DNA of 64,000 bases from Chondrilla cf. caribensis (lineage: Eukaryota; Porifera; Demospongiae; Chondrillida; Chondrillidae): contig OZ026549.1 in assembly GCA_964020155.1 (NCBI GenBank), forward strand, positions 2,399,633 to 2,463,632. The letters are read 5' to 3'. Both the position numbers and the translations under genes were made by a program. The number at the start of each line of letters is the position of its first letter. Position 1 is the first letter of the stretch. A model generated the notes under the pieces. That model searched no databases and had not been told where the DNA came from. It saw only the letters and a program-made list of their open reading frames with translations. Positions 15,968 to 61,169 of this stretch are shown here, in pieces.

Positions 15968-18900
15968 ATGAGGTTCTTCCGTTTTCTGGTAATACTGAAT
16001 CTATTACAATTGTTGAAAGGTTAGAAAATTTTATGGACAGGCATGTTTTCATTGATGAAAGGCCATATTGTGATATTGTTCTTGATACTATTGTAAATAT
16101 GTGTATATATAATATATATGGGATATCTATATATTCCAAGATACGGTAAATCGATAAGTAGGCAACAATACGTTGACTGGTGTTGTTATGCTATTATTCA
16201 CTAGGTTCCCCTGATATTACTGTGGTTATTGATGGCTACACAGTTGACTCTGTTGAGTCATCACCAGCTTTACTACCACTAGGAACAGCTCTTGTGTTAG
16301 TGTGTAGAGTCAGTGGAATACCACAGAGACAGATCAAATATAACTGGACATGTCCAGATGATCCATGTGAACGTCCACGAAGTTTGGGGAGAAAGGTTGT
16401 TAACAGCAACATTCTAGCAGTCAATATAACTTCTGACAGTGATGGAGGAACATACACCTGTGAAGTATCAAGAGATGAGGCAGATGGGGGATACAGCCAA
16501 AATTATACACTTCTTGTTACAGGTATGGTTCAACCGTTATTATTATCCATGTAAATTAAAAAAATGCAAACATTATTTTCTATCAAGGTGCAGATAAAAA
16601 TTTGCAGACACTCCTAAATAGAATCTATGCAGTGTACAAATTACTCAATATCTGTATATTGTTATCATGGTATTAGGAGGGAATTATATCCACAGTTATG
16701 GGAGACTTGTCCACTCTCAACAAGTAATAACTAGAGTTGATCAGCTACTACCACCTGGTAATATAAGTGGGCCTGGAAGAATGGACTGTATAAGGACCAA
16801 ACCTGAACCTGCTGTTATTGTGTTGAATGGGACTAGTATAGGAACAAACCCAGCAAGAGATCCAGTATATCAAAGTATTGAGAATGATGAGGAGATAAAT
16901 ACTGTATTCTTCAAACCATCTTATTTGGAAATTTTGAAAAGTACATATGGATACTGCGCAAACTATATTGACTCATCTTTTTACCTGGCAACATCACCAG
17001 GTTAGTCACTGAAAATATTCACTAGACTAGTTACTGTATTACTCCATGTATCAGCTAGCAGCTACCAATCAAAGTGATAACCATCTATGTATATGTACGT
17101 ACGTTGGTATAACCAAAAAGATACATAATATTCTTGAAACAGCTGCAGACTGTTTAATTTGGAAAGTTTTATTCCTAATTGCAGGTACTTTATTCAATGT
17201 TTGGATCGTTGGACTTTTTTGGCACAGGTTGAATTATAATGTTAAAATTATACTCAGTCCCATTCCACCTGGCATTTCACAAGTGATAATAGGATATGAA
17301 CGTCATGACCTTGGAGTTACACTACAGGGAAAGTATGCAAATATTCAGAGACATACAAATCGTGTACTCTCATCACTAGTACCAGGTGCTGAGTACACAG
17401 TCATTGTACTCGGATTGGGTGGAACTTCAAGGAGTAGGAATATCACAAGGATGTCATTTAGAGCCAAACCAGCAAGTACGTGTATCTAGTATTGCAATAA
17501 TTTTTGGATTAGTGTTGGGATGTAAGTTATGAAGGTTAAATATAATAAGATACCACGTATAAAATCAGTTTTCATATTAATTTTTCATATTAATATCATG
17601 GCTACATATATTTGCAATATAATTATTGATTCTTACATATTGAATTAGAACCATCTGCTCCAAGGCATCCCTGCATAATTGGAGATAGTGGAGATGAAAT
17701 GAAACTACATTGGATACCTCCACTGGAACCCAACGGAGATGTCTACTATCTCATTCAATTTGAGTCATATGATGGAAATTATTGTATAACATTGAACACT
17801 TCAACTTGGTTAACTTCCTTCAATTTGACAGGATTACAAAGTGGGGAGAACTACAACATCACAGTGGTGTCAGTGAACTCAGCAGGAAGGAGTGATACTT
17901 CACCAGTTCTGTATTACAGGCATGAATGTCATCCTGAAGGTGAGTTTTGATTGCATGCTTTTCATGCATATAGTAAAACTAAATCAATGCTCACACAAAA
18001 GTTAGTTTGAGTTTTACAAACATCACAAATGGTAGCTACATACAAGTGTAACTCAATGCTTATTTAAACTTAGCAATGGGTTCCTGTACTGTACATCTGG
18101 AAATATTGGCAGGGGTATATATTTACTGGGCATATTTGCAAATTTTGAATCTACCGCCAAATTATCATCCGCCAAATTATGGCTCAGAAATGCATGGCCT
18201 TACAATGTAATCTTTCCTTCATTCAAGCATAGTATTATATTTATAGCCTATGAATATAATTATAAACCAGGGGATGGCAACCTCCAAAAATAAATATCAC
18301 CAAAGTTTAACTCTGAATTAACTCCAAATTGCCAAACATATTTCTCGTCAAAATTATTTGTTACATGGTATAGACATTCAAAGGGAATAAGGAAAGGAAA
18401 TTAATTTGTGAATTGAGATGAATTGGGATTGCTATATTATATTATGCTATTCAGTCACTCCATATACTAAATAGGAAATGAAAGGGATCAACACATCAAA
18501 TTGTACTCACTGGTTGTACCATTATAATCGTCCAGATTTTCCTGAGGTTATTGTGGTCATTGATGGCTACACAGTTGATTCTACCCAGTCTTCACCAGCT
18601 TCACTACCACTAGGAACAGCTCTTGTGTTGGTCTGTAGAGTCAGTGGAATACCACAGAGACAGATCAAATATAGCTGGACATGTCCAGATGGTCCATGTG
18701 AACGTCCAGGATATGTGGGGAGAAAGGTTGTTAACGGCAATATTCTAGCAATCAATGTAACTTCTGACAGTGATGGAGGAACATACACCTGTGAGGTATC
18801 AAGAGATGAGACAGATGGGGGATACATTCAAAATTATACCCTTCTTGTAACAGGTATGTTTGCAATTATTCATTGTAATTTCGGAAAACATATGATCATT

Positions 18901-21900
18901 ACTTACTATTCATCAGTTTACAAAACACAGACTTTTTCACATGCCTCCACATGCTCACACACACATGAACACATGTGCGCTCGACCAAACTCACAATATA
19001 TTCTGCTTACTATATTATTGATAGGAGGACATGTTCTCCACAGTTATGGGAGACTTGTCCACTTCAATCAAGTAATAACTAGAGGAGATCAGCTTCTACC
19101 ACCTGGTGATATACATGGCCCTGGAGCTCTCACCTGTACAAGGAACAGACCACAGCCATTCTTTTTAAAACATAGAATTGGAAGAAACCCTACGAGAGAT
19201 CCGATATATAGTGTTGAAAATGACCCTCAAAGGGATGCTTTATTTTTTGCACCATTTTACCTGAGGAATTTTGAAAATACAGAGGGATTCTGTATCAACA
19301 TCGCTAAAACCCATTTCTATCTGTATCTATTGTCAGGTGAATATCCATGATGAATTCTAATTAGATTTTTCTTGTTACTTTTAATAACGCTGTCATGAAA
19401 CTGATCACTATATTGTCCAAATCTCCAATACATAGGTATTTTACCCCCAGTCGGTATTTCTGACACTGTCCCAGCTCATGACTGGATTGCAATACACCTC
19501 AACCGTCTTCCCTCTGAGATTAATAGGGTTATTGTAGGATATGAACGTCATGACCTCGGAGTGACATTGCAGGGAGAGTATGCAAATATCAGGAGAAGTA
19601 CTCAGCATACATTCTCATCCCTAGTTCCAGGAGCTAGGTACACAGTTGTTATGCAGGGACTGAGTAGAACTTCAGATAGGAGTCAGCATGTCACAAGAAG
19701 AGATGTCAAAACCATGGAAACAAGTATGTATTATATAACAAAAGTACTACAGTATCTGTTCCTTTGATTGATGCTGCTATGTTGATCAATAATGTTGCTA
19801 TTTACATTGAAATTAATGAAAATTATGCCAATTATGTTGGAAAAGAGTTCATTTTGAGTCTACGATATTTCTCCATGTGACATGATTATGTGTGTGGGAA
19901 TGTGAAATATGAATGTGCACATGCAATATCCAGGTGAATGTTGAACAACACACATCACATAATATAGCCCACATAATAAAATCCCTATATTGATAATCCA
20001 TTTTATTATAATTACTCATAATATTTTCCATTCCAATGCATTCAGAACCATCTGCTCCTAGATACCCCTGCGTAATTGGGGAGAGTAGCGAAGGAATTAT
20101 ACTCAACTGGATACCTCCACTGGAACCCAATGGAGATGTTTACTACCTAATTGTCCATGAATGTTATGATGAAATTCGTACGGTGAATACTTCAAGCAAT
20201 ACTACCTACTTCAATTTAACAGGACTGCAGAGAGGAGTGACCTATAACATCACAGTAGTGGCAGTGAACTCAGCTGGAAGGACTGAAAGTGAACCAATTC
20301 AGAATTACACATTCAACGGACAAAGTTAGTAATAGAGCTCATCTGACAAATTAGAGTAATTTGCATTTTGTAGCACATAATAATTATCCAATCCACATAC
20401 ATCAGGTGAATACCCTTCCATATGATTCATGTTAAATTGCATGTAGTCAACAAGAAGATGGATATTTAAGCCATTGACACACATTACTGTTGATTTCTAC
20501 TACCCACCTCATCAGTGCCTAGAGATGATTGGACAGTCCTCACAGCAGTGGTTGTGGCCTCTATTGCAGTTCTTGTGATAACTCTGGCTGTTATTCTGAC
20601 TATTGCGATGCTATACTTCAGAAGAAAGCACAAATTGTATAGGTAAGTCAGGTTTTGTTTGTACGGCCCATTCTTACCTACATATAAATGTCAGTATCAA
20701 CAGGCTTATAGACAGAAAGTTTTCTATGGCTTTATGCAAAGATGGGGAAAGGTTAATGCTGTATAGTTCATAACGAACATGTCAGCATTTTCTTATAAAA
20801 TATTAATTTTTATTACTTGATCGAATCTGCCCCCCCTTCTCCTGCTTTTAATGGTAAATCAAATGTTATTAATATTTATGTCATTTGAGCTTATGTATGA
20901 AATTTGCATATATTTTGATAATTGACAGTGAGAAGAAACTTCTTATTAAAAACTACATTAATGCACTGTCCTGTAGGGAAACAACATACGGCAACAGAGA
21001 AGTGAGTTATTTGTAAGAATTGTTTCTCAATCAAAGCATTAAATATACTAAATAATTTGATTCCTCAAGACAATTTTGTTTTAGCATTGAATTGAATTAT
21101 GCTGCATATTCATAGTATCATTGTGAATTGGAGACTAGGCTGTCTGTTATGAACGATGAATGGAGGATGAAGCACAGTGATCTAGAAGTCCAAGGGTTCC
21201 TTGGAAAGGGACAGTTTGGTGATGTGATGCTTGCCTTTCTGACAAGTACATCATGTACAGATAGAGTGAAGAGCTATACCGACAGAATGGTAATGCAAGG
21301 AAATTTTTTGTCCATGACAAACACAGTAGCAGTGAAATTCTTGAGAAGTGAGTGAATATTGCGAATGCCAGTTATACAAAGTTTTCGAGGAGATTCAAAC
21401 ATGGTACATTAAAATTGGGATATGATATATATTAATAGCTACAATGTATGATGATCATTAGATGACGTTACAACAGAAGAGAAGCATGCCTTTCTCAAAG
21501 AGATTGAACTGATGAAGAGAGTGTCTATGACTGGCAATGATCACGTAGTTCAGATCATTGGTTGTATACTGAATGAACCACCCATTGCCATGGTAATGGA
21601 ATATGTTCCTTTTGGTGACCTCCACAGCAACCTTATCCAGTGGAAGGAACAGGTATTTCCATGACCACTATTATACAATAGAAATGACATTTTGTTCACA
21701 ATTGTTGTTCAACGCTACAATTCCCTGACCATGAAATACACTTGATGCCATTGTAATATTATATTACAATCATAGGAATTTATTAATAATATTATTAATT
21801 ATGAAATAGCTTATAACAGGATGGACAGCTTTGAAAAACTCCTTTGGCGTTGACTACTTGTATTCAAGAGAACCCCTTCAAGACTCTGACCTTTGGTCAT

Positions 21901-23453
21901 TTGCTTATCAGATTGCAATGGGAATGGTCAGTGCTTATAAACCAGTTAGCCAATAATTATTACATTGATTTAATTCCAAAATCTTGTTTTTATCCAATCT
22001 AGTGTTATTTGGCATCAATAGATATTGTTCACAGAGACCTCGCTTGTCGAAATATTCGTGTTGGGTATAACAAAATTTTGAAGATTTCAGATTTTGTTCT
22101 TATCGAAGAAGTTGATAGACTATATGCTTTGTCATCAAATACCAGACTACCAATAAGATGGATGTCTCCAGAAGCCATAACTCAACGATTTTTCACTGAA
22201 AAATCTGATGTGTAAGTTTTCTTAAAATAACTAATGTAGTAAAAAGACCCATTATCTAAGTCTCAGCTGTGTTAGCTTTAATGAACATTGAAGAATCCAA
22301 TGCACAACGGTTGAAATGATAACATAGTATCACTACAAGCATTTTGCATACAATTATAATATAATATAGGTAGATAAATAAATTCTGATTACATAATACT
22401 TATCAAAATGAATATCTTCAACATCAGTAAGAAATAGTTATTATAACAGCATTTATAGTATCAAGTTCAAGAATTACTGTTATAGAATACCATTGGAAAC
22501 TCAATGAAATAGCTTTATAATTATTAATTATTTTTATTGTAGTATTAATAACTAGCATGCTAGCGTCCAAATAGGCTGTTCTGAGGGTAAGTACTGACTC
22601 ATTGCATAAAATTAACTAATGAATCGACCTGTGATCATCATATGTGATTACTCTCTTCAGATGGTCTTATGGAGTTTGCTTATGGGAGATATGTACATTA
22701 GGTGAGTATAATATGTATGCATTTAAAACTTAGTGTGGGAAAACCAATTATCGAACATTATTTATGTACATATGTGTACATAAATAATAAACTAATGATC
22801 CCAATGTTTTTAGCACTTCAAATAGAATTATTGCTAAATGTTTGCTGGACAACTGATTTTTATTTCTCAAGGAGAACTCCCCTATGGATGCATTCCAAAT
22901 TCTGAAGTAGCAAAAACAATTGCATCTGCAGTGCTACTGGAAAGACCACAAACATGTAGCAGTGAAATGTGAGTGTACAAAGAAGTGGGAATGTGTATAT
23001 ACTCGATGACTGCAGAATAGTGAATATCAAAAATAGCCTTGTGACATAAACATTGAGAATTTCATACTCATATTATGTTGCTATCACGAGTTTATATGTG
23101 AGATTAACAAGCAGAAAATATCACTTGCATATACTTCATTTTCTTCTGTATCATTCAGCTTCGATTTGATGCTGAATTGCTGGAGAAACAATTTCAAAAA
23201 TCGGCCAAGTTTTGCTGAAATTAAAACATACCTGGAGGATCTCATTGAAACAAATATATCCAGTACTAACTACATCATGTTGGATAATCATTTCAAGGGT
23301 GAGTTGCCTGATATGACTTATTGACATTGTAAAAGGATGCTTCATATTATAGGAAATTATTCAGGCATCAAAACATTTATAAATTAAATACACATTAATA
23401 TCACATTTAAAATTATCTCATATTCAGGATATCCAACATTCTCAGGCCACTGA
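15968..23453 (+). CDS. RTK gene A: Ig-X-FN3-FN3 twice, TM, degenerate tyrosine kinase
   Basis: Signal-peptide exon 15968-16019. Ectodomain exons: Ig 16205-16522, X 16677-17000, FN3 17185-17475 and 17649-17939, Ig 18536-18853, X 19025-19336, FN3 19436-19723 and 20046-20324. TM 20516-20642, juxtamembrane 20977-21001. Kinase exons: 21116-21347, 21462-21652, 21820-21926, 22003-22211, 22661-22701, 22872-22968, 23159-23298 and 23428-23453. The glycine loop GKGQFGDV, the VAVK lysine and HRDLACRN are kept, but the metal-binding DFG reads DFV. Exon 21820-21926 is 107 nt where B, C and D have 72, and with canonical splice sites it meets the previous exon out of frame. Its RTK-like frame (LQDSDLWSFAYQIAMGM) starts two bases in. 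The last exon stops after YPTFSGH, about 26 residues short of B-D. I infer a pseudokinase or a decaying gene. Confidence 0.8.
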
Positions 23454-23893
23454 AAAAATGATGTGATATCTAAAGCGAGTGAAGACACATTTGACTTGAT
23501 TATGCTTTTCTGAAAGTTTGATTCAATTATCCAGTATTTACTAACTGCTTCAATCATTGCATTCTTTTTTTTACGCCTGGATGCTATTATAGTCAACACC
23601 ATTGTACTAGTTATTTACTTACTGAATCATTGAGATAATACTTTTTAAGACATCATCTAATGGCATGCATGACAGTGTTCAGTCATATACAATAATATGG
23701 CGGCTCACACAGTCCCCTTCTTAGCACTGATTGGCATGTGGTAGTAGTTGAAGTAGCATTGACTAGAACAGTTTTATCTTCTGTTCTTTGTATCAGTTGA
23801 GATCCAGTTGAAGGTTGACAATAAGTCAATAAATATTATATCAATGTGAGGAAGACAACCCACTTTAAAAGAAAGGAAAAAACAGAGGGAATT

Positions 23894-23965: not shown

Positions 23966-24107
23966 CAACCAGACTTTCTCAGTTCCTCTTTGATACTGCA
24001 CTGGTGGTTCTTCAAACTGCAGTCTCGCACCAGTGGGACCAAACATCTGTGTGGATGTACAATCAATGCTATATTGAAGCAGGTCGCTGGTGACATATAA
24101 GTAATGC

Positions 24108-25870: not shown

Positions 25871-28800
25871 ATGACTACTTGGAAGTGGTTATATCTGTTC
25901 TTGGAATTTATGAATCTACTGATAAAAGGTTGGGATATTATGAGTAGGCATTCTTTCTCGCATGAAGAATAGTGTTGTGATTCAGTTGTTGTTACTAAAA
26001 ATTGTAGGGTACTCGTAGCATGTACATGAAGGCACTATAACTTTAGGGATAATAAGAAGAGCTGAACTGACTATAGCATGTACTTGGAAGGCCAATCATT
26101 CACAAGAGGAAAATCAAATTCTACAAGTTACTAATTACTACCGATAGATAGTTTGGATTTTGATAAAGACGCTTATGATGTGCTTCCAAATGTCAATAAC
26201 TTCTGATTATGACCACAAGATATTTGCTGCCTTAGTTGCCAAATCAGAAATTTAAAATAAATTTTATTAATTTTAAAGCAATGAAGCATGCAGATTTAAA
26301 GCATTATAACTCATGAATACAAGCACCTTATTGAATAAAAATCTGCTAAATATAATTATAATTATCTCAACGTATTACTTGACTTGCTGTATTTAGTGCA
26401 CTCCATAAGGAATCCTGATAAAAGCAAATTAGATTCTGATAACAAGAGCTCATTTTCTGGGTTAATTAAAGCTTTTCCTATCAAATTTTTAATGACATAT
26501 ATATAATCATGGTTATAATTCAGACATCTAAGAGCATTTGGTAATTATTTGTGTTCACTGCTTTTGTGTATATTATTATAGGTTCCCTTGAGGTAACTGT
26601 GGTGATTGATGGCTACACACTTGACTCTGCTCAGTCCTCACCAGCTTCACTACCACTAGGAACAGCTCTTGTGTTGGTGTGTAGAGTCAGTGGAATACCA
26701 CAGAGACAGATCAAATATAACTGGACATGTCCAAATGGTCCATGCGAACGTCCAGGATATGCGGGGAGAAAGGTTGTTAATGGTAATATTCTAGCAGTCA
26801 ACATAACTTCTGACAGTGATGGAGGAACATATACCTGTGAAGTATCAAGAGATGAGACAGATGGGGGATATCATGAAGACTATACTCTTCTTCTTACAAG
26901 TATAGTAATTATTGTCTACTCTAGTACCAGTGTACATAATATTACATCCGTGTACTATGTAATTACCCCTCCATATTATATTAGGAGGAAATTTAATTCA
27001 CAGTTATGGGAGACTCATCCACTTTCAAAATATTATTACAAGAGTAGAACAGCTTCTACCACCTGGTCATGTAACAGGGCCTGGAAGAATGGACTGTATA
27101 AGGACCAAACCTGAACCTGCTGCCATTGTGTTAAAGGATACTAGTATAGGAACAAACCCTGCAAGAGATCCAGTATATCGAACAGTGGGAAATGATGCTC
27201 AAATGGACACCATATTCTTCAAACCATCTTATTTGGACAATTTCAATATTACAGGGGGATACTGCACCAACAATCACAATTCATATTTTTATCTGGCACT
27301 ATCACCAGGTTAGTGGCTGAAAATTGTACAATCCTTATCAGCAATGTAGCTAAAAATGACGCACATCCATGCAACTGCCCTTGTATATATGATACAATAA
27401 TATTTGATTAATCCTTAATACTACAATAATACTATCTGGCTTCATATAAATTTTAATTCCCTACTTTAGGTACTCTATTCAATGTTGCCGTCACTAACCT
27501 TCTCTATAATAAAGGAGAGTTTAATTATAATGTTTTCATTGTATTCAGTCCTGACCTCCCAGGCATCAATAGACTAATAATAGGATATGAACGTCATGAT
27601 CTTGGAGTGACATTGCAGGGAGAATATATAAATAAGTTACTTATAAGATTTAATGTACAAGGAAGACCAGGGCATATATTTCAAAGACTAGTGCCAGGTG
27701 CTCGTTACACAGCCGTGATAATTGGACTGGGTGGAACATCAACCTTAGAAAGGAGTAAGACTATCACAAGGATGTCTTTTAGAACTAAGCAAGCAAGTAT
27801 GTACATCTAGAAGAAGTAACTGCTGCCTAAATTAGGTCATTTTCCAGGTGAAACGGTTGTACTCTCCCTTGGTTTGAATTTATATGAAGCATTACTTAAC
27901 TAGATTCATTCAGTGAGGTTTGGCATGAACAGGTCATGTTTAATATTTTGACCCAGCAGTGTGGGAAAACATCTGCAATTTTAGAAAATGGTATATTAAA
28001 ATAAAAAAAGGGTAAAAATAATCTGCTTCCTAAAGCAATTTCTGTGGGCTTCAAATATCACTTTACTGCATTGTATATGGCACATACCATTTAAATATCA
28101 GTTGATGTGATTCTCATTAAATTCATTCAGAACCATCACCTCCAAGGCATCTCTGCATTATTGGAGAGAGTAGAGATGGAATTGAACTGAACTGGATACC
28201 CCCACTGGAACCCAATGGAGATGTTGATTACCTCATTGAATATTTCAAAGGAAATCATCACAATAATATAACAGGAGGCACGAATGGGTCCACCTTCTTC
28301 AATCTAACAGGACTACAGCAAGGAGTGACCTACAATATCACAGTGGTGGCATTTAACAAAGCTGGAAAGAGTGATACTGGAGCAGTTTTGGATTACAGAC
28401 ACAAACATGAACCTCCCGGTTAGTTATGATTTTATATTTCTATTAAGGGAGATAAATTGATGAATTGATGCTTGCACAATATGTTAATGTAATATTGTTG
28501 TGAGTTTCCATACATTGCTAATGGTTAGGCATATATACCATACAAATTTTACCATTTGACCATTTTAATGTTGTCAATAATGAGATAATATACATTTGGA
28601 AGAAAGCAACTACATTGTCACATGAGGTTGATTGGAAGATCAACATCAATTGCATGATCAAGTCACTGCATTTAATATGCAAATGAACATTATCATGTGT
28701 ACAAAGAACATTATTTATTAATGTATTAACTTGTGTTCACTGGAGGTATCATAGATTTCACAGGTTCCCCTGAGGTTACTGTGGTGATCGATGGCTACAC

Positions 28801-35214: not shown

Positions 35215-36091
35215 TAATACTTGATTAGCCCAGATTTGAAGTTAGACACATGATACTATAATGGGATACTCACAAGCAGAATACTTTACTTGCATATTCT
35301 TTTATTTCATTTGTATTTTTTACAGATTTGATCTGATGCTAAATCTGAGGGGAAGTTCTGGCTCATTGCACAAAATGTCATAAAATTAACTAGTGAATTG
35401 ACTTGTGACCACCGAATATGTGCCTATTCTCTTGCCTAACCCTAACCCTAGATGGTCTTATGAAGCTTGCTTATTGAAGATATGTAATATATACGATTAG
35501 CAAACTCCATAGTCATTGCATTAGGTGAGTATATACGTATCCATTTAAAACTCAGTGTGGGAAAATTCATTATCAAACATCATTTATGTTCATGTATGTA
35601 CATGAAAAATTTAATGACCCCAATATTTTTTGCACTTGGAATAGAATTATTGCTGGACAACTGATTTTTTTTTCTATTTCCCAAGGAGAACTCCCCTGCA
35701 TTGCATGCATTCCAAATTCTGAAGTAGCAAGAACAATTGCATCTGCATTGCTAGTGGAAGACCACAAACATCCATCCATTAATGTAATGTAATGTAATGC
35801 ATCTAATGTAGCAGTGAAATGTGAGTGTACACAGAGGTGGGAATGTGTATATAATGGATGACTTCAGAGTGATAATATCAAAAAAATATAGCCTTGTGAC
35901 ATAAACATTGAGAATTTCATACCCATATTATGTTGCTATTGTGAGTTTTTATCTGAGATAAATATGCAGAAAACATCACTTACATATACTTAATTTTCAT
36001 TGGTATTATTCAGCTTCGATTTGATGCTAAATTGCTGGAGAAACAATTCCAAAAATCGTCCAGGTTTCGCTGAAATTAAAACATACCTGGA

Positions 36092-47446: not shown

Positions 47447-47483
<37 letters not shown>

Positions 47484-49903
47484 GGGTTATTGTACAGTAA
47501 AGCACTACATAGATGATAATATTATGTCTGCATGATGTCATGCGCAGAAGGTCCAATGAAAAAAAAAAAAAATTATATTATGGTTATGCTATTAAGCCTG
47601 TGGAATTGATGTACCTTCGTGTTATTTACTACAGCAGACAATCATGAGATAACTCCTGGGAATGAAGGATTTCAAATAGCATATAATAATAGTTGAAAAG
47701 ACGTCTTAATACAATGTCATCTGCAAGGCCTTATATGATAATTTGCATTACAGGGCAATAAGACATTATCTATTATGAAAAACAATCTGATTACAGTATA
47801 TGTGTTTAATTGTTCAGGCATAGGCAGAGGAATGGTTTGGCAAGTGGGGGGGCCTTGGTGCTGAACTCATAATTAATATTGCACTTGTGTCCATGTATGC
47901 AATACTCTACATAGACATTCTTGGCCCCACCTTTGTGATGAGTGGGGGGGCCATGGCCCCCCTGGCCCCCCCTGTTCCGCTGCCTATGTCAGGTTTTCTT
48001 TTCTTGCTACAGTTCACAACTGCATCTACATGGCTTCAAGAATCTGATGTTTGGTCGTTTGCTCGTCAAATTGCAGTTGGAATGGTTAATTATTTACCTA
48101 TAATTGAGACAAATTACAGTGATGACTAACATTATGCATTTCCTGTTATTTCAATCCAGACTTCATTGTCATCAATGAATATTGTTCACAGAGACCTTGC
48201 CTGTCGAAATATTCTAGTTGGGCACAACAAACTATTGAAGATTTCAGATTTTGGTCTCTCCAAAAAAATTGATGGACTGTACACTTCCTCATCAAAAACC
48301 AGACTGCCATTAAGATGGATGTCTCCAGAATCAATATCTCACCGATTATTCTCCGAGAAGTCTGACGTGTAGGTTCTGTGGGAATCGATATAGTAATGAA
48401 AATTATTAAGTGGCATCCATAATGGTTTCAAACGGTACAATTTTGTCTCCTTGGCTTTGATTGTTGCTTCAGTTTGGTGTTATTACTCATATCCACCATT
48501 TCATGTTGTGTATGCAAAGTATGAGCATGATAATTATTATACATGGGATTTGCCACATGACACATTCTGTGAGTAACACTAAACAGGGTGTTAAATCAGT
48601 AAATGTTGCAACTTATTTATCCTGAAAATTTCATTATGTATATATATGTTCACTATAACTTCTTCAGATGGTCTTATGGAGTGTGCTTGTGGGAGATATG
48701 TACATTAGGTAGGTTTATTACATATAATTATACATTATGTATTTGAAACTGAAAAATTGAAACAAATGGTTATTAGTGATAGCTTATAAATCTAAACTTG
48801 GCATTCTGAAAACTAATAATTATTGTTGTAAATACACACATGGTTAGAGGGACTAAATACAGGCTGACTTGAATTTGCAAACATTTAATCCTATAATACT
48901 GTGCTTTTCAAAAGAAGCTGGCTTGAAAGATCATTCATCCTTGGAAATTAAATGCAAATTGCAAGTCTAGTTGTCAATTAATGAAATGTGCAATACGTAA
49001 ACTTCACAGCGAGTAGAGCATAATCAATAATAATAATAATTATGATTATTATGTTGGCTGACTGATAAAATTTCTTCCCAAGGGGAACTTCCTTATGGTT
49101 GTATTCCAAATTCCGAAGTATCAAGAACAATAGCAGCTGCAGTGCTACTGGAAAGGCCACAAAAATGTAGCAGTCAAATGTGAGTGTCATATACATTGTA
49201 TGTATGATCCATTGTCAAATTGGTGATGGTGCTCTACCACAACAGTTGAACACACATAAACAGAACAAACGAAATCAGGCACATTCAGTATAATAACTAT
49301 TGTATCATAAAAATAATAATAATATTTTGTAAATGTTACAAGTCCTGGGATGAGATAAGCATACATATCATTGACTCATTCGTTAAGATTAGGTGAATAT
49401 TTTTCCTTTATAAATCATGAAATCATATCAAGTATATGATATTGTTTTCCTCATTTTTCAATTCTTCCAGCTATGATTTGATGTTGAATTGCTGGAAAGT
49501 GCACTCAAAAGAACGTCCTACATTCAGTGAAATTAAGAAGTACCTGGAGAATAGCATTGAAAGCAACATGCCCCGCACTCATTACATCATGTTGGATAAT
49601 TATGTTAATGGTGAGTGGTGGATGGGCAGAATTTTAACTTATTACAATTAATTATTGATTCATTATAATAAAATTATGATAATACAGAAAATTCAGTTTG
49701 TTTGCTCAACTGTTCATCACAGCCATTTTGGTTTACCCACCCTCCATGCAATTCAGTTTAGAAACATAATAATATTATTTTGAACTATTCAATGCTCAGG
49801 ACATCCCACATCCACCATTGAGGCCGATGTAAGAACTGAGGTGATATCTGACGGGAATGAGGATACATTTGGGTTGAACATGCTCTTTGAACTTCAAGCC
49901 TGA
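41586..49903 (+). CDS. RTK gene C: Ig-X-FN3-FN3 twice, TM, tyrosine kinase
   Basis: Signal peptide 41586-41643 ([19 protein letters not shown]). Ectodomain exons: Ig 42187-42504, X 42594-42917, FN3 43071-43394 and 43724-44011, Ig 44356-44673, X 44818-45138, FN3 45238-45525 and 45756-46034. TM 46243-46387, juxtamembrane 46704-46731. Kinase exons: 46834-47065, 47142-47332, 48013-48084, 48160-48368, 48668-48708, 49083-49179, 49471-49610 and 49800-49903. The exon lengths sum to 1258 residues plus stop. All kinase landmarks match gene B, including [23 protein letters not shown] and the activation-loop DGLYTSSS. From the TM exon onward, exons and introns are almost identical to B, marking a recent duplication. 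In the first Ig domain the usual NWTCPDGPC reads NWICPDGPC, which removes a predicted N-glycosylation site. A 170-bp MITE sits in the intron before exon 48013. Confidence 0.88.
47819..47988. mobile_element. 170-bp MITE in a gene C intron, hAT-like
   Basis: The element begins CATAGGCAGAGGAATGG and ends ccgctgcctatg, which are imperfect inverted repeats. TCAGG flanks both sides (47814-47818 and 47989-47993), and the gene B intron carries the empty site (attcaggttttc, just upstream of 32275). The interior has runs of G and C (agtgggggggcc). The 5-bp duplication matches that of the full hAT element at 36092-38932. Confidence 0.82.
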
Positions 49904-50283
49904 AACAGTTATTATCTTGCTTCAACGGTTATGTACACATCAACAATTTCCTTTTATCTGACGGTTATAGCTACTACTACTAGAGATATCAGGTATTCTA
50001 CTTACCTCACTATTGTATATTCTACCTTTATTTTTATTCGTCAAATTCTACAATATTTTTTGCTTATCCACATGTACTGCTGTACAAATATTATTTGGTA
50101 CATGACATTCTCCAATATATGCACTGCTGGAAGGTACTCTGACTTCAGAGTGGGAAATGTTAAAATGCATTTTGTGATTTCAACTAATACTTGATTAGCC
50201 CAGATTTGAAGTTAGACACATGATACTATAATGGGATATTCACAAGCAGAATACTTTACTTTTCTTTTATTTCATTTGTATAT

Positions 50284-50600
50284 TTTACAGCTTTGATTTG
50301 ATGCTAAATTGTCCGAGAAAGAATTTCAAAATTGTTCAACTTTCACTGTAATTAAAACGTACCTGAAAAATCTCATTGAAAGCAATATATCCAGCACTCA
50401 TTGTTGGATCATCATTTCAAGGGTATTTTGACCGATATGACTTATTGATATTTTAAAATCATGATTCACACATAATGTTCAGGATATCCCACATGTAACC
50501 ATATTTCTGAGGCCACCAGAGAACCAATGTGATATCTGAAGAGGGTGAAGATACATTTATTAATTTACACCTGAATGCTATTATAGTTAACATTACTATA
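50284..50600 (+). pseudogene. Second relic of an A-type kinase C-terminus, behind gene C
   Basis: After tatattttacag, the stretch 50291-50425 is a decayed copy of the FDLMLNCWRNN...TYLEDLIE exon. It contains frame-breaking losses, for example at LNCW and at the TCATTG junction. A tail-exon remnant follows after ttcagg at about 50483-50590. No other kinase exon is present. It corresponds to the relic behind gene B but is shorter. Confidence 0.75.
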
Positions 50601-50639: not shown

Positions 50640-52080
50640 TTTCATAATATTATTATACTTACCATTGTAATTGAATGTTATGATACATTTCCTTCATGTA
50701 TCATTGGACAGTGCTGGATTATATAAACAATATGGAGGATCACACAGTCCCCACTTAGCACTGTTTGGCATGTGAAAGTAGCTAAACTACCATTGAGTGG
50801 AATAGTTTTATCTTCAGTTTTTTGTTAGTTTAACCATAAGATCCAGTGGAAGTTTGAAGTCAATAAGCAATATAGGTTTTTTCCAATGAATCTCCTATAA
50901 GAATAGGTTTTGCAGTCTGAGATTCTTTGTTCTGCTTACAAAATGTATGTTAATGTCATGGCTTTTTGGTGTGAAACACGATGAACATTATGTGTCATGA
51001 AGCAATTTGATAAGGGTCAATGCAATCAATTATTTGTCTAGACTCTTTGTCTTGTGATTAATACATGTACATAATCTCACGCACATTCACAGACATATAC
51101 ACAAACAAACTGCTCAGTGACACATACTCACACATGCTCACAGACATACACCTTCCCATGTGCAAATACACACACAAACATCCAAAAGAGGGAGAAAGAT
51201 ATCTATGACTAATACTAAATCATACTAAATGAAGCTCCATGTGCGAAGACAGAAAATCAATCTCATCTGTTTTTCTATTGAATAAATATTATTCAGACTG
51301 TTAAGATCCTTTGATTAGCCTGACTATGGCTCTTCTTCTAAGGTATTAGCTGTAGGTCAAAACTAAGGCTTCTCTTTGTCAGTCATCACACTACAGTGCC
51401 AGCCAAAAGAAATGGAACGATTGTCACCTGGCACGAATGTTGAATGCTGTTACTATGGAGGCTTTTGTTATTATTTTGTCAATGGATAGTAGAATATAGT
51501 ATTATTTTTGGCATACGTTCAGGTATCTTCTTTTCCAAGCTTTGTTGCAATTTCCACACTAAAGTATGGTGGCCGACAAGAATCACATGGGCTGAGCATA
51601 CATGAGCAAAGAAATGATGCATGGGCCAGAACTTGCACGGCCCGAGAAGTTAGGCATGGGCTGAGGCAGAATGATCTATATAGTGCAATGTAGTGATTGC
51701 CCGATGGATGGAGGGATGGCTAGATTAATAGACAGACTAAAAGTGATGAAGGGAAGCCTAGCGAAGGAAAGATTTTAGACACAAGGCCACAATACAGCTG
51801 TTGTAATCCATCTATGCATAGTAGAATTATTACGGAGCCATATGCATATAATAGACACCAATTACTGGATGCAGAGGCTATTTCTGGGCTGCGCGTGCAT
51901 GCAGTATTATTGTTCAGGTTGGACTTTAGATTTTTCGATTTCACTATTACAGGAAAGTTATTATTTCATTTGACCAAGCAATGAGTGAACAAGTACTCTG
52001 GGTTACTGTCTATAAAATGCAATCTTACAATGACTTAATCCTTTATGGTGTAGTTCAAAATATGACGGATCTGGATGGAT
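50640..52080. other. Spacer C-D, lacking the SINE cluster
   Basis: Colinear in parts with the other two spacers (acagtccccacttagcactg near 50745, caatcaattatttgtctag near 51023). The SINE block is replaced by a direct junction around 50865-50905. It carries its own insertion at about 51393-51945. No coding region is supported. Confidence 0.65.
51393..51945. mobile_element. Possible Tc1/mariner-like insertion or fragment
   Basis: Sequence absent from the paralogous spacers. The left edge reads cagtgccagccaaaagaaat, like the terminus of some Tc1/mariner elements. I could not find a matching inverted right end or a transposase frame, and the edges are approximate. Confidence 0.35.
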
Positions 52081-52728: not shown

Positions 52729-55700
52729 ATGACTACTTGGAAGAGCCTATATCTCTTTCTGGAATTAATGAATCTACTGATAAAAGGTTGGGATATTTAT
52801 GAGTGAGCATTATTCCTCACATACGTAATAGTGTTGTGATTCAGGTGTTGTTACCATACCTTGTAGGATAGCATGTACATGCATTCACTATAAGCTTAGG
52901 GATTATAAGAAGTGATGAACTGAGTATAGCGTATGCTGAATAAGGCAAATAATTCACAAGAATTTAAATTCTACCAGTTGCTAAACACAGATTGCTAAGA
53001 TTTTGATGAAGACGTTTCCAAATTGTAGTGTATGTGTTCAATTAGCATATGAATGGTCAGTGCACACTTTATGCTCATGTTTGTTGAAGACTACTTGTTA
53101 CATGTTAAGAGTTAATTAAAATTAATGTTTACATCAAATATTTGATTTAAATGAGCATGCATGCACAAATCATGTCACGAAACACAACACACACAGCACA
53201 TGCACGAGGCAGTGTAATCAACTTCCTTTATGATTTATGTGTCTTATGTCAATCATTAACTTCCTTCCTTTGATACTTCCACTCTGAGCAATAATCATTA
53301 TTATGACATAATAGTGTCTTGTAAGTGTTTGCACAGTCTTAGTCACATTTTCCTTAATGAATGTTCTATAAATTTGGAGTGATTGGTTGGACAAGTTCTG
53401 GCTGTGATCCATACAACTTGCATGGAGTGATATGTAAAGTATTGGGTGATAGATTAGTAATTAATGCATGCATATAGTAATAATAGGAGATACTACACAA
53501 ATGTCAACAACTTCTAATTATGACCAAAATCTTAGCTGTCTAGTTGGTGCAGAGTAAGACTTAGTTTATAAAATAAAATTGAAAGCATTTAGATTTGAAA
53601 CATAATGTATACAATGTAATATATACTCATCAATACAAACACCCTTAATTTAAATAATTTGCCCTTAATAAAATTATATCTCTAGCATTACTTGGCTTGC
53701 TGTATTTAGTGCAATTCATAAGCAAATCCTGATTAACTCATAAGGGATTCTGATAGGAAGAGCTTACTTTTCAGGTCGATAATAATTGAAATTTAGCCTA
53801 TGTATGAAATATATATTGACATATATAATTCAGACATCTAAGAGCATTTGGTAATTACAGCATGTTCACTGCTTATGTGTATATTATTATAGGTTCCCCT
53901 GAGGTAACTGTGGTGATTGATGGTTATACAATCAGCTCTACTCAGTCCTCACCAGCTTCACTACCACTAGGAACAGCACTTGTGTTGGTGTGTAGAGTTA
54001 GTGGAATACCACAGAGACAGATCAAATATAACTGGACATGTCCAGATGGTCCATGTGAACGTCCAGGTTATGTGGGGAGAAAGGTTGTTAATGGCAATAT
54101 TCTAGCAGTCAACATAACTTCTGATAGTGATGGAGGAACATACACCTGTGAAGTATCAAGAGAGGATACAGATGGGGGATACCATCAAGATTATACTCTT
54201 CTTGTTACAAGTATAGTAATTAGTGTCCACTCTAGTAGAGGTGTACATGTTATTATATCCGTGTACTATGTAATTACCCCTCCATGTTATACTAGGAGGA
54301 AATTTGATTCACAGTTATGGGAGATTCATCCACTCTCAGCAAGTAATTACTAGAGTAGAACAGCTTCTACCACCTGGTCATGTGACAGGGCCTGGAAGAC
54401 TGGACTGTATAAGGACCAAACCTGAACCTATTGCCATTGTTTTAAATGGGACTAGTATAGGAACAAACCCAGCAAGAGATCAAGTATATCGAAGTGTTGG
54501 AAATGATTCTCAAATGGATACCATATTCTTCAAACCATCTTATATGGACAATTTCAATATTACAGGGGGATACTGCACCGATTCTGTTTATTCATATTTT
54601 TATTTGGCATTATTACCAGGTCAGTTGTTTAAATAATCGAAAATGGTAGAATTGTCATTGAAGCTACAAACTAAAATGACATATTATATCTACATACCTA
54701 CCGTTGTGAGATACATTTTACTGGGGAGCTGGCCAACTTACTAACTAGTAATCTTCATTCTTGTCTGTAGGTACTCTATCTAATGTTAATGTCATTAAAA
54801 TTTCCGGGAATATGTTTGCCGTTTCTGTTCACCTCAGTCCTGCCCTCCCAGGCATCAATAGAGTAATAATAGGATATGAACGTCATGATCTTGGAGTGAC
54901 ATTGCAGGGAAAATATGTATATGTTGAAAGAGAAACACGGCATACAATACGAGGATTAGTGCCAGGTGCCAATTATACAGTCGTGATACTTGGACTAGGT
55001 GGAACATCAACCTTAGAAAGGAGCAAGAATATCACAAGGAGGTCTTTTAGAACTAAGCAAGCAAGTATGTACCTCTAGAAGTAATAACTGCTGAAATAAG
55101 GTCATTTCCCGAGTAAACACGTTATACTCTCTTTAATTGAGTTATAATTGTTTTGAAGCATATGCATTAACTGCATTCATCTACTGAAATTTGCATGAAC
55201 AGGTCTTGTTTCATGTTTTGACTCGGGAGTGTAGAAAGTAGCTGCAATTGTAGAAAGTGGTATTTAATATTTGAAGGGTATAAAAATATTCTGCTTTCAA
55301 TAACAATTTCTGTGGGTTTATGTTGGAGACATTAAATATCATTGTACCCTATTGTACACATATTTATCCTACTATTATCAGTTGACATGATTTTCAGTTT
55401 CTTCCAATTCAATTTAGAACCATCACCTCCAAGATATCTCTGCGTTATTGAAAAAAATAGAGATGGAATTGAACTAAACTGGATACCTCCACTGGAACCC
55501 AATGGAAATGTTTATTATCAGATTGAATATATCATGATGCAAGACAATGGGAGAAACAACTCTATAAGTAGGACTAACTTCTACAAATTAACAGGACTAA
55601 AGAGTGGAGTGACCTACAACCTCACAGTGGTGGCAGTGAACAAAGCTGGAAAGAGTGATACTGGAGTAGTTCTGGATTACAGACATGAACATGAATCCCC

Positions 55701-58700
55701 TGGTTAGTTCTGATTTTATGGTTCCATTGAAGAAGATCAATTGCTGCATTGATGGTTGCACCATATATTGTATACAAAGGGTTAGGTTGTGCATTTTACA
55801 TACATTGAAAATGGTCAGACATACAAGTGTAGCCATTTGACAATTTAATGTTGTTAATAATGAGATAATAAATATTTGTTACATGAGGTTAATTGGAAGT
55901 TCAGTAATCATGGGATCAAGTCACTGCATTTAATATCAAATAAATATATATTAGAATGCAATACAAAGTACAGTTTACAAACATATTAACTTGAGTTCAC
56001 CGGAGGCATCATATACATTTCATAGGTTCCCATGAAGTTACTGTGGTGATCGATGGCTACACAATTGATTCTGTTCAGTCCTCACCAGCTTCACTTCCAC
56101 TAGGAACAGCTCTTGTATTGGTGTGTAGAGTCAGTGGAATACTGCAGAGACAGATCAAATATAACTGGACATGTCCAGATGGTCCATGTGAACGTCCTGA
56201 ATATGTGGGGAGAAAGGTTGTTAATGACAATATTCTAGCAGTCAACATAACTTCTACCAGTGATGGAGGAACATATACCTGTGAAGTATCAAGAGAGGAT
56301 ACAGATGGAGGATACAGCCAAAATTATACACTACTTGTCACAAGTATAGTTACCAGTGTCCACTTTCATTCCAGTGTGTATCCACCCCATATTTACTGAA
56401 TATAAAAATGATATATTTTATGGACGGTCATGGCATGCATTCATTGTTATTTTTCCATATTGTATTAGGAGGAAATTTTATTCACAGTTATGGTCGACTT
56501 GTTCACTCTCAACAAGTAATCACTAGAAGAGATCAACTTCTACCACCTGGTGATGTGAGGGGTCCTGGAAAAATGGAATGTACAAGGACCAGACAGAGGG
56601 TATATTTCGCACTAAAGAAGAGGGGAATAGGCAGAAATGGAGGAAATGCTATATTCTATAGAAATGTTGAAAATGACTGTGAAAGGGACACTATACAGTT
56701 TAGAACATCTGACGTGAACAGGATTAGAAATACACAGGGATTTTGCACCGTAAGAGGTGAAACTTTTTTCTATCTGTTTCTTTTGCCAGGTGAATTCTCT
56801 CTAGTACGCATAATGTTGTTTACATTTACTTGTCACAAAATTTGAAACATTTCATTGAATTTTAAACATTTCTAATACACAGGGAATTCATCCACAGTCC
56901 ATATATCCCACTCTGTCTCAACTCCTGACAGGATTACAATAAACCTCCATCCTGTTCCTTCTGAAATTACTGAGGTTATTGTAGGATATGAACGTCATGA
57001 CCTTGGAGTGACACTGCAGGGAGAGTATGTAAATATTGGGAAACATACCCAGCATACATTCTCATCACTAGTCCCAGGTGCTAGGTACACAGTTGTATTG
57101 CAGGGATTGAATGGAACTTCAGGTAGGAGTCAGCATGTCACAAGAAGAGATGTCAAAACTATGGAAACAAGTATGTGTAAAAACAACAATAATATAGTGT
57201 CATTCAATTTCAGAACTATAGGTGATACATTTCACTCAGATGAAACCATGTAGTGACATTCTCAAGTTTCAAAGGCATAAATGAAACCAGTATTCAACCC
57301 TTGTGCACCATATGAATGTTAACTAATTTTTTTTCACAACAATATATACAGAACCATCTGTTCCAAGGTATCCCTGTGTAATTGGAGAGAGTGGAGATGC
57401 AATTGAACTAAACTGGATGCCTCCACTGGAACCCAATGGAGATGTCTACTATCTCATTGTCAATGAATTATATGAAGAGAATAAAACAATTAACACTTCG
57501 AGTGGTTCAACATCTTTCAATTTAACAGGACTACAGAGAGGAATTACCTACAATATTACAGTGATGGCAGTGAACTCAGCTGGAATGAGTGATACTGGAG
57601 CAGTTCTGAATTACAAATTTAATGGATTAAGTAAGTAGTTTACAGAGGTACAAAACTGTTGTGCAACTTAGGGTGAAGGTGATTTTACATTTCCGCTAAT
57701 TTAGGCTAATTTATTAAGTGTGTTATTCTGATTACAAGATATGAATTAACGTATGACACATGTTTGATGACACAGTCAGATTAGAACATTGGTAGTTAAA
57801 TAAGATGAGAATTGTGGTACTAAGTCTTCTGTTTACCATTGCTCAGCACACCCCACAGCATTGTCTACAGATGATGGGATGGTACTCCTGCCATTGATTC
57901 TGGTCTCACTTGCTGCTCTCATAATGGCTTTGGGTGTTATAATGTGTTGTTTGATGCTATACTTCAGAAGAAAGTACAAATGGCTTCATAGGTAAGTTAT
58001 CATTTGATGGTACATGATTTGATATACTTGCCCTTTCTTTAGAAGTTAGATTTAACACGGCCACACTTTTTTCAATATTAATGTCCAATATTTATTTCTG
58101 ATAAAGTTTTTACGACAGCCAGACATATCAAGTCATCATTACAGTAATATTACAAAAGCAAAAAGCTGTACCCTATCCTATATACCTACCACTGCATTAT
58201 AATATATTGTCATTGTGGCCGATATACAAAATTAAGGAGGTATTATAATCTGTTCCAAAGAAAGGTGTTATAAACTTCAATGTCCTGTCCTTGTAGGGAA
58301 ACAACATATGGTAACAGTGAAGTGAGTCATCTCGTTCTCGAAACTGAATATACTATGGATGTTGAGCTAATATAGCTAATTTGTATGAATTGGCATTTGT
58401 ATTAATGTCATTTACTTAGAATTATTATGGAAAGGAATTTGATTCATCTGTGGTAAGGAACGAATGGGAGATGAAGCACAGTGATCTAGAAGTCCAAGGG
58501 CCCCTTGGAAAAGGACAGTTTGGAGATGTGATGCTTGCCTTTCTGACAAGTACATCATGTACAGATAGAGTGAAGAGCTACACTGACAGAATGGTGATGC
58601 AAGGGGATTCATTGTCTACATCAAAAACAGTAGCAGTCAAATTCTTGAGAAGTGAGAGAACATTGTTCAGCAAAATTTAATTATTCATCACATTTGAGAT

Positions 58701-61169
58701 ATTCACACAGTTTTTGCTGATCATTAGGGGGAATATCACCTGACGAAATGCATACATTTTTCCAAGAGATTGAACTGATGAAGAGAGTGTCTGTGACAGG
58801 CAATATACACATTGTTCAGATAATTGGTTGCATTTCGAATGAACCACCCATTGCCATGGTGATGGAATATGTCCCTTTTGGTGATCTTCACAGCAACCTT
58901 GTCCAGTGGAAAGAGCAGGTATTTCAATGACAGCTGTTTGTAGAATGTGCTTATGGCTGTATAGATGTCAATGAATGAGATGAATACAGATTCTGATGAA
59001 ATATATTAACAGGCAGTCACATCTATAATGTTTGCATTTTATTAAGCGTATTATTTGATCACGTGACAACATCTGATTAAGATTTTCAATGAATAATACT
59101 ATTATGTAATTGTTCAGCTAGGAATGGATAATTATAATATAGAATATTTGAGTCTGACAGAAATTACATCTGAATGGTCTATATCCGATAATGTGATTTA
59201 TCTTTGAATGTATATTAATTGGTCATATTCAAATTGCAGTATAATATTATCTTCACTGCCTTCATTTCTTGATACAGCTTACAACCGCACCTATATCACT
59301 TCAAGAATCTGATGTTTGGTCATTTGCTCGTCAAATTGCAGTTGGAATGGTTAATTAATGACATACTTAACAGACAAATTACAGTGATGACTAACATTAT
59401 GCATTTTCTACTATTTTGCCCAGACTTCTTTGTCATCAATGAATATTGTTCACAGAGACCTTGCCTGTCGGAATATTCTAGTTGGACACAACAAACTGTT
59501 GAAGATTTCAGATTTTGGTCTCTCAAAAAAAATTGATGGACTGGACACTCCTTCATCAAATACCAGACTGCCCATAAGATGGATGTCTCCAGAATCACTA
59601 TCTCATCATATATTCTCTGAGAAGTCTGATGTGTGGGTTCTATGGGAAATGATGTAGTAATGTGAAATGCTTTAGTCTCATTCTAAATGGTTTTAACCAG
59701 TACGCTTTTGTCCCCTCAGCCTTGATTGTTGCTTTATTTCGGTGCTATTATTCGTATTCACCATTTCATGTTGTGTATGGAAAGTACATTAGCCTGATCA
59801 TTGTTGTTCATGGGATAACACCACAATGCATGCGGTATATAGATGGGTGCTAATTAGTAAACATGGCAACCTATATATCCTGAAAATTTCATCATCATGT
59901 ATACTTATGTTCATTACAACTTTTTATTAGGTGGTCTTATGGAGTGTGCTTGTGGGAGATATGTACATATGGTAGGTTTATTATATATAATTACATAATA
60001 TTATATATTCTTAACTTGACATTCTAAACTATTAATTGTTGTATACGTACATACATGCTCTAATGAGGGACTAGGTATACTTCCCAAATTTCCGGAATAA
60101 GTTTGCATTTGCAAACATTAAATTCATTAGAATTGTTTACTTCAAAAGAAGCCACCTTGAAAGATTTTTTTGTTGGAAATTAGACACTAATTGCAAGTCC
60201 AGTTGTGAATTTGTGAAATGTACATTATGCAATCCCTAGAGCAAGTATACGGTATAGTTGATAATAATAATTATGATTGCTATGTTGGCTGAATGTCAAT
60301 TTCTTCCCAAGGGGAACTTCCTTATGGATGCATTCCAAATTCTGAAGTCTCAAGAACAATAGCAGCTGCAGTGCTACTGGAAAGGCCACAAACATGTAGC
60401 AGTGAAATGTAAGTGTCATACACATCGTGTGCTTCATCGATTGTCAAAATTGATGATAGCACTCAGCCACAACAATTTATCACACGTGCAAGCAGGACAA
60501 ATGAAATCAGGCATAATCACATATAATATATTAATATTTTATGTGCTGGGATAAGGTGTGCATACACATATAATTATTAAGAATGAACTTATTAGTAAAG
60601 ACTACATTAAAAATTTTTCCTTCATAAATGCTAAATCATATTAAGCACGTATTATCTTCCTCATTTTTTCAAATTCTTCCAGCTATGATTTGATGTTAAA
60701 TTGCTGGAAAATGCATTCAAAGGAACGTCCAACATTTCATAAAATCTGGAAATACCTAGAGAATGGTATTGAAAGCAACATGTCCAGGTCTCATTACATC
60801 ATGTTGGATAATTATTCCAATGGTGAGTGGTGGAAAGGCAGGACTTAATTTATTACAATGATGTTGAATGACAGAAAATCACTGATTCAATAAAATTATA
60901 TTATAACAATACAGAAAATTTAGGCTCATTTGTCCACTTACACTTGCAACTGTTCTAACTACATCAATTGCACAGGCGTCTTGGTTCGCCCACCCTTCAT
61001 TCAATACACCTTATAAACATTATATATATATATTCACAATATTTTTCGATCTATTAAATGCTCAGAACAACCCACATCCACCATTGATGCCAATGTAAGA
61101 ACTGAGGTGATATCTGACGAGAACGAGGATACATTAGGGTTGAACATGCTTTTTGAACTTCAAGTCTGA
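52729..61169 (+). CDS. RTK gene D: Ig-X-FN3-FN3 twice, TM, tyrosine kinase
   Basis: Signal peptide 52729-52786; an in-frame upstream ATG at 52711 is not shared by B or C. Ectodomain exons: Ig 53893-54210, X 54296-54619, FN3 54771-55064 and 55418-55702, Ig 56026-56343, X 56469-56789, FN3 56883-57170 and 57352-57630. TM 57847-57991, juxtamembrane 58297-58321. Kinase exons: 58420-58651, 58728-58918, 59278-59349, 59424-59632, 59931-59971, 60312-60408, 60683-60822 and 61066-61169. The frame is open for 1246 residues. Catalytic motifs are intact ([37 protein letters not shown]). Unlike A-C, the activation loop reads DGLDTPSS, with aspartate in place of tyrosine. The juxtamembrane segment has TYGNSE rather than TYYGNNE. 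The second Ig domain has GILQRQ where the others have GIPQRQ. Confidence 0.87.

Follow-up and report, generated by a model that had tools for sequence, protein, structure and literature searches.

A window of 64,000 nucleotides from the sponge Chondrilla cf. caribensis (C4:2399633-2463632, the whole stretch of DNA analysed) carries four plus-strand paralogs encoding receptor tyrosine kinases (RTKs), each with a signal peptide (SP), two successive Ig-X-FN3-FN3 blocks, a transmembrane segment (TM) and a tyrosine kinase, where X is a domain without a Pfam family. Gene models, assembled by hand using the exon borders conserved across copies, together with Pfam confirm the original prediction of four paralogs with a doubled block, as well as their extent from the start of the copy 1 SP exon (15968) to the end of copy 4 (61169). 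Comparison of plus-strand frames revealed two rounds of four exons per copy followed by the TM and kinase exons. Copies 2, 3 and 4 comprise 18 exons apiece, with all introns GT-AG, and each splices into a single open frame (1237, 1236 and 1225 amino acids), in line with the prediction that three copies would do so; copy 1 lacks an acceptor at kinase exon k3, which is preceded by AC, not AG; use of the closest AG (21869 or 21871) would give a shorter exon. The kinase of copy 1 also has DFV in place of DFG. RTK kinases are recognised by the hallmark motifs GxGxFG, VAVK, HRDLAxRN and DFG, and copies 2-4 combine a signal peptide, an ectodomain, a single TM and an intracellular tyrosine kinase with these motifs. 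A fifth kinase-bearing copy, located beyond the window at ~C4:2.469-2.478 Mb, has kept HRDLACRN and DFG.

Full-length pairwise identity among the window RTKs is 69-89% (copies 2-4 mutually 82-89%), and copies 2 and 3 share 90% DNA identity across nearly 6 kb. Signal peptides and TMs of the RTK copies were called from hydropathy alone; the SP exons of copies 2-4 are conserved, 58 bp long and have a weak donor, and copy 4 has an alternative SP candidate (51444-51522) with a donor score of 2.7 compared to 1.5 for the chosen exon. The donor of kinase exon k7 occupies an identical position, 140 bp into the exon, in all four copies. No TM-like segment is present in any copy in the d1-a2 stretch between the two blocks (best 20-residue hydropathy 0.74-1.48, compared to 2.88-3.0 for the true TM exons), and in all four the d1-a2 intron has GT-AG ends and joins exons in compatible phase. 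Judged from these models, the gene anatomy is almost certainly as described.

A Pfam scan of copy 4, using a model without the signal peptide and last exon, returned one kinase stretch (PF07714, 5e-76), four fn3 stretches (5.4e-34) and two Ig_3 stretches (4.5e-14), with no significant family for X. Scored singly, the first FN3 of the two blocks reaches only 20.6 and 27.7 bits (cut-off 25), and the scan detected no lectin, LRR, SRCR, L, furin-like or Calx-beta domain. Block 1 of copy 1 likewise gave one Ig_3 and two fn3 matches. Every Ig, X, FN3 and FN3 exon has a length of 3n and is flanked on both sides by phase 1 introns; symmetric phase 1-1 exons are described as diagnostic of exon-shuffled modules (PMC8001218). 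The RTKs are a clear example of exon-module doubling and kinase sharing.

The X exon of copy 4 matched no Pfam family and that of copy 1 gave a chance match only (E 0.03), while a comparison of 20 X members against Pfam returned six families, each from one of the 20 members (best E 0.029). X has two invariant cysteines (residues 37 and 93 in the first aligned sequence), and this pair and the stretch preceding the second cysteine prompted its consideration as a divergent Ig. The comparisons lent this reading no support: hhalign gave a probability of 0.2 (on a scale to 100) against the family's own Ig profile and 0.1 against the first FN3, and the sole match in a PDB profile search was a nanobody (E 0.15) with cysteines out of register.

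The proposed tandem array of four stands as regards tandem arrangement, but four is an undercount: the family also includes the fifth kinase copy and X at 52 other loci. A search of the 137 Mb assembly with one X query (150 of 170 candidates scored; all genome searches here cover this assembly) placed 62 of the 150 within C4:2.41-3.24 Mb, all 62 on the plus strand, with four on C2 and the remainder elsewhere on C4; further searches also find X on C6. The paired X exons of the five RTKs account for ten of the 62, and the others, merged with a second search, resolve into 52 loci with a median spacing of 13 kb. The array therefore comprises 52 X loci and five RTKs on one strand over ~0.82 Mb, with the window's four RTKs and the fifth copy forming its left edge. 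All 33 distinct loci read among the 52 (in 3.3 kb pieces) have Ig, X and FN3 in order, namely Ig-X-FN3-FN3 in 16 and Ig-X-FN3 in 15, with the Ig split in L057 and X split in L030; the second FN3 is visible in 16 of the 33 probably because the pieces stop short of it. The block occurs at 57 array loci and matches to the RTK kinase at five, and the kinase search (150 of 710 candidates scored) found no match in C4:2.48-3.24 Mb. A young lineage-specific family had been proposed; the block is shared beyond the RTKs, and only the five-copy kinase-bearing subset stays a candidate for a young group.

Two siblings without kinase were followed to their ends in 10 kb pieces (L043 and L044). In both, the block is followed by one exon that encodes the TM and a tyrosine-rich tail up to a stop codon and whose splice sites are compatible in phase. 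Neither 10 kb piece contains a kinase match at E<=1e-3 (best 0.014 and 2.7), against 18 and 9 in two kinase-bearing pieces used as positive control. The L043 tail has 14 tyrosines and five YxxPhi motifs in 232 amino acids (shuffle p 0.02), and in the 103 amino acid tail of L044 all seven tyrosines lie in YxxPhi motifs (mean of 1.7 after shuffling, with none of 2000 shuffles reaching seven). Among diverged relatives, L046 (C4:0.43 Mb) has one block and a short tail, and L047 on C2 has a doubled block followed by a TM and short tyrosine tail, as judged by exon order only, so that block doubling seems not to be unique to the RTKs. A Sushi domain adjoins the diverged Ig-X-FN3-FN3 gene at L046:4411-4803, which suggests that the C4:0.32-0.84 Mb set contains other ectodomain variants as well.

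The block is also found in other species. Protein searches (7994-8000 candidates scored each, targets of similar length) returned as best of 60 matches to copy 4 a protein of the sponge Halisarca dujardinii (P0001, A0AA96MNW2, E 5.7e-64), which has a single Ig-X-FN3-FN3 block, a TM and a tail with tyrosine motifs but no kinase, and whose Ig is 55-59% identical to five of the window Ig exons. P0001 resembles the kinase-free siblings in block, TM, tyrosine tail and lack of kinase, and differs from the window RTKs in having a single rather than double block and no kinase. A search with the whole of P0001 returned only itself, the tail words being our guess as to what swamped it; a search with its ectodomain found P0061, a metagenome protein of 457 amino acids that carries the block (identity 37%, coverage of the query region 97%), as well as a single weak match from a fish. 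The presence of the block in both P0001 and P0061 implies that it predates the array or is common to several species. The ectodomain is not private to the RTKs: the block recurs in these proteins and in the siblings, and X at diverged C4, C2 and C6 loci. A0AA96MNW2 is named 'Insulin-like protein receptor', while its domain list holds Ig and fn3 only, and on domain grounds the name looks wrong.

Diversification was measured in the sibling loci. Median pairwise identity among loci other than the window copies (a set that takes in the fifth RTK and one diverged locus; the pN/pS set is cleaner) is 86% for Ig, 70% for X and 78% for the first FN3 (FN3-1), at a pS of 0.13-0.17. By column bootstrap pN/pS is 0.49 (0.34-0.69) for Ig, 0.90 (0.68-1.18) for X, 1.00 (0.73-1.40) for FN3-1 and 0.51 (0.36-0.74) for the second FN3 (FN3-2), with tree-count dN/dS values of 0.62, 0.84, 1.09 and 0.52 (n=31, 30, 32 and 15 sequences, respectively). 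An excess of nonsynonymous change at p<1e-4 was observed in 16 of 390 codon columns (Ig 4/104, X 5/100, FN3-1 6/96, FN3-2 1/90), compared to two of 390 for synonymous change; the top outlier is FN3-1 column 59 (N=32 versus 3.9 expected, p 1e-19), and the top synonymous p is 2e-6. Many columns lack any nonsynonymous change (Ig 44/104, X 28/100, FN3-1 33/96, FN3-2 41/90). Within X, a hypervariable residue pair lies between the near-invariant HSYGRLVH and VITRGDQLLPP, and there is a separate variable stretch at about columns 50-54; FN3-1 is variable at 36, 59-61 and 83-85. By these counts Ig changes more slowly than X and FN3-1, both of which have focal hypervariable sites; Ig has a few as well.

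The RTK kinases carry LPIRWMSPE or LPLRWMSPE in all four window copies and are interrupted by six introns between k1 and k7. PDB comparison found RET, ABL, TRK and FGFR about equally alike, with an EGFR-named entry top in two stretches, and since many families match about equally the kinase is not given to a bilaterian family. Over the exon encoding HRD, the kinase search (150 of 710 candidates scored) yielded eight matches of 68-74% identity, distributed over C19, C7 and C1, besides weaker ones in other places. The C19 locus that was read has an exon k1 with the same insert between beta2 and beta3 as the RTK copies, and a TM-like segment preceded by two Calx-beta exons; kinase and Calx-beta exons likely form one gene. 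Capture of the kinase by the array is the simpler direction because the kinase-free block is common, and we infer that the kinase moved into the array from RTK-like genes elsewhere. Two other kinase loci deserve mention: C14:1617065-1621599 (L005, L006) contains two kinase-match pairs, each in one open frame (595 and 564 amino acids), a putative resemblance to JAK-type dual-kinase proteins, and at C15:805000-805800 a kinase match lies within an open frame of 4737 amino acids.

Positions of the RTK genes and kinase remnants are given in the table. The copy-1-like remnant between copies 2 and 3 is split by a hAT-like element (36304-37806, minus strand), which has a frame of 500 amino acids with a DUF4371 and a hAT dimerisation region by Pfam. 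It is followed by 3 kb at 83% identity to the spacer between copies 1 and 2, and a second remnant lies between copies 3 and 4; these traces fit a history in which more than a single gene was duplicated at a time, with subsequent loss. A tandem duplicate (89%) at 13812-14659 of the flank that is also found upstream of copies 2-4 (25.2, 41.0 and 52.1 kb) is possibly a shared upstream region. A minus-strand frame of 413 amino acids at 9684-10925 has no Pfam match at E<=0.01.

Table. Coordinates of RTK genes, their exons and kinase remnants in the window
Feature	Position	Strand	Remark
RTK copy 1	15968-23298	+	last exon k8 not found; likely degenerate kinase
Copy 1 SP exon	15968-16019	+	
Copy 1 block 1 exons	16205-16522, 16677-17000, 17185-17475, 17649-17939	+	
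Copy 1 block 2 exons	18536-18853, 19025-19336, 19451-19723, 20046-20324	+	
Copy 1 TM	20516-20642	+	
Copy 1 kinase exons	21139-23298	+	
RTK copy 2	25871-34162	+	SP 25871-25928; ectodomain 26582-30462; TM 30683-30827; kinase and tail 31321-34162
Kinase remnant (3'), copy-1-like	35344-39014	+	split by hAT-like element
RTK copy 3	41586-49903	+	SP 41586-41643; ectodomain 42187-46034; TM 46243-46387; kinase and tail 46872-49903
Second kinase remnant (3')	50231-50468	+	between copies 3 and 4; matches 23096-23344, 76%
RTK copy 4	52729-61169	+	SP 52729-52786; ectodomain 53893-57630; TM 57847-57991; kinase and tail 58458-61169
Copy 4 block 1 Ig exon	53893-54210	+	
Copy 4 block 1 X exon	54296-54619	+	
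Copy 4 block 1 FN3 exon pair	54771-55064, 55418-55702	+	
Copy 4 second Ig-X-FN3-FN3 block	56026-57630	+	
Copy 4 kinase exons k1-k7	58458-60822	+	
Copy 4 C-terminal exon k8	61066-61169	+	
Other seven Ig exons	16205-16522, 18536-18853, 26582-26899, 28764-29081, 42187-42504, 44356-44673, 56026-56343	+	
Other seven X exons	16677-17000, 19025-19336, 26985-27308, 29240-29560, 42594-42917, 44818-45138, 56469-56789	+	

The gene anatomy, the array, the focal diversification of the siblings and the sharing of the kinase, all read from the DNA, suggest that the family likely consists of diversified recognition receptors, and that the RTKs are, somewhat less firmly, probably the kinase-bearing members of a large recognition-receptor complex, having arisen by block doubling and kinase capture. 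The shared recognition unit would be Ig-X-FN3-FN3, apparently single elsewhere in the array (as read to the end in two genes) on one-TM receptors whose tails have tyrosine motifs of the kind bound by SH2 proteins, and in the five RTKs this unit is doubled and joined to a kinase common to RTK-like genes elsewhere. The mechanism is likely as follows: X and the first FN3 would bind a ligand, or like with like, through their diversified faces and so cluster the receptors, which would activate the kinase in copies 2-5 and lead it to phosphorylate the YIMLDN/YITLDN site at the C-terminus of these copies. Where kinase-free siblings join a cluster, their YxxPhi tails might be phosphorylated as well and dock SH2 proteins. 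Copy 1 with its DFV may be a non-catalytic partner or a decaying gene. Binding, clustering and trans-phosphorylation are here extrapolated from the biology of RTKs and of receptors with immunoreceptor tyrosine-based activation motifs (ITAMs). We posit that the family may serve self/non-self or microbial recognition, and a recognition function of the RTKs, as first proposed, now has better circumstantial support than before. Allorecognition specifically and action of the RTK kinase on sibling tails are each a tentative possibility.

Several points weigh against this interpretation. Diversification was measured in siblings rather than in the RTKs, whose X exons show little variation at positions 13-14 (SQ, FQ or FN), and for both X and FN3-1 the bootstrap interval spans 1, which falls short of positive selection on whole domains. 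The site test combines parsimony counts with a Poisson null on loci chosen as best query matches, its counts ignore recombination and are open to gene conversion, the two synonymous outliers among 390 columns indicate some overdispersion, and Ig also holds four outlier columns. Array tails were read to the end in two genes alone; of the five tails in the motif test only L044 is strikingly rich (the others p 0.009-0.047, uncorrected), and strict matches to ITAMs or their inhibitory counterparts (ITIMs) number 0-1 per tail. Among the 52 sibling loci at least nine are incomplete or disrupted, being five marked as such, L022, L030 and L050, in which a stop codon breaks X, and L057 (Ig). That the remainder of the array lacks kinases is judged from the 150 of 710 candidates scored, and with a single C19 locus read the joint Calx-beta/kinase transcript is a prediction only.

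A microbe-sensing pattern-recognition family, diversified by microbes rather than by kin recognition and with RTKs that signal uptake or defence, would explain the size of the array and its focal diversification just as well. Sponges have expanded immune receptor families, and in Halichondria panicea putative cytokine receptors carry a tyrosine kinase together with Ig and FN3 domains (PMC8242945); however, the copy 4 scan lists no lectin, LRR or SRCR domain, and an IgSF (immunoglobulin superfamily) array with tyrosine tails is as close to allorecognition complexes as to pattern-recognition receptors, leaving microbe sensing a possibility that we hold at well below even chances. We consider it rather unlikely that the RTKs are ordinary TAM-like adhesion or growth-factor receptors, young duplicates dimerised by a fixed ligand with a role in development or cell clearance. 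Two Ig-like and two FN3 domains do make up the TAM ectodomain (PMC4253401), copies 2-4 are closely alike and the RTK X exons differ little at the hypervariable pair, but LPIRWMSPE or LPLRWMSPE stands where TAM has KWIAIES, the block far outnumbers the kinase along the array, and the siblings show focal diversification.

The two remaining explanations concern the gene models and their integrity. Decay of much of the array, with the RTKs as non-functional tandem duplicates homogenised by gene conversion, could account for the lost DFG and splice acceptor of copy 1, the two kinase remnants and hAT-like insertion in the window, and the broken sibling loci, yet it is very unlikely given that copies 2-4 are intact across 18 exons, copy 5 retains HRD and DFG, and so many sibling columns are free of nonsynonymous change. 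That each Ig-X-FN3-FN3 block is a gene of its own, the doubled protein being an artefact of in-silico joining, is hardly credible: both array genes read to the end do have a single block and then a TM exon, and the RTK exon joins are predicted from genomic sequence, but in all four copies the d1-a2 stretch lacks a TM-like segment and its introns are properly bounded and in phase, and on C2 two blocks likewise seem to precede one TM tail.

If the RTKs are indeed the kinase-bearing members of a recognition complex, a bolder scheme can be put forward, one that we regard as speculative and improbable: a poriferan histocompatibility-like complex of kinase 'writers' (the five RTKs) and up to ~50 tyrosine-tail 'substrates', with the kinase captured from Calx-beta-associated RTK-like genes. 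Co-recognition itself would then couple kinase to substrate, and through its kinase the array would be linked to that part of sponge cell recognition in which the aggregation factor acts. The array offers a testable writer-substrate logic, with five kinase fusions and tyrosine tails in both genes followed. For sponge self/non-self recognition at the receptor level, the array is a concrete, mappable candidate locus. According to a review, invertebrate allorecognition mechanisms are a mystery and candidate proteins are unconserved among sponges, cnidarians and ascidians (PMC12065747).

FGFR and VEGFR ectodomains consist of Ig only, and the four fn3 stretches of copy 4 bear out the original prediction that its domain order is unlike theirs. 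Insulin receptor family members have L domains, a Cys-rich region and a kinase, a combination absent from the domain lists of copy 4 and P0001. The nearest known order is that of the TAM receptors (TYRO3, AXL, MERTK), which are likewise type I RTKs with a membrane-proximal FN3 pair and Ig upstream, and which have two Ig-like and two FN3 domains and the kinase motif KW(I/L)A(I/L)ES (PMC4253401). In contrast, each block here has one Ig and two FN3, is doubled, and contains an X not detectably Ig (Pfam, hhalign and PDB profile alike); KWIAIES is absent from all four window RTKs, which places them outside TAM on the kinase motif, and by eye they have an insert of ~30 residues between beta2 and beta3 that TAM kinases lack. 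The TAM ectodomain, set apart in the original prediction by its lack of X, would be closer than allowed there were X related to Ig; the profile comparison of X with the family's own Ig returned nothing.

Calx-beta and Wreath domains characterise the sponge aggregation factor; Calx-beta exons adjoin the sister kinase on C19 and are not found in the RTK ectodomain. The RTK of Geodia cydonium is also a sponge RTK, but unlike the window RTKs it is described as having introns only outside the kinase domain (PMC5793068). Ectodomain shuffling is noted in a survey of holozoan tyrosine kinases (PMC8662651), and the open literature searched, in its accessible parts, held no account of an Ig-X-FN3-FN3 block, kinase-bearing array members or the Halisarca protein. 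Tandem IgSF genes in one region, as found here, also make up the Hydractinia allorecognition complex (Alr; 41 IgSF genes, PMC11999971), and the Podocoryna complex has 22 putative IgSF genes (PMC13119343); ITAM and ITIM are reported on candidate allorecognition genes (PMC12065747), and the accessible Alr text mentions neither X nor kinase-bearing members. The Botryllus fuhc locus of ~800 kb, with ligands and receptors some of which have an Ig/Sushi region (PMC12065747), is similar in size but encodes different proteins, and Sushi occurs here only beside the diverged L046. The array resembles these complexes in layout but has other domains as well as kinase-bearing members, and any working in the manner of such complexes is an analogy.

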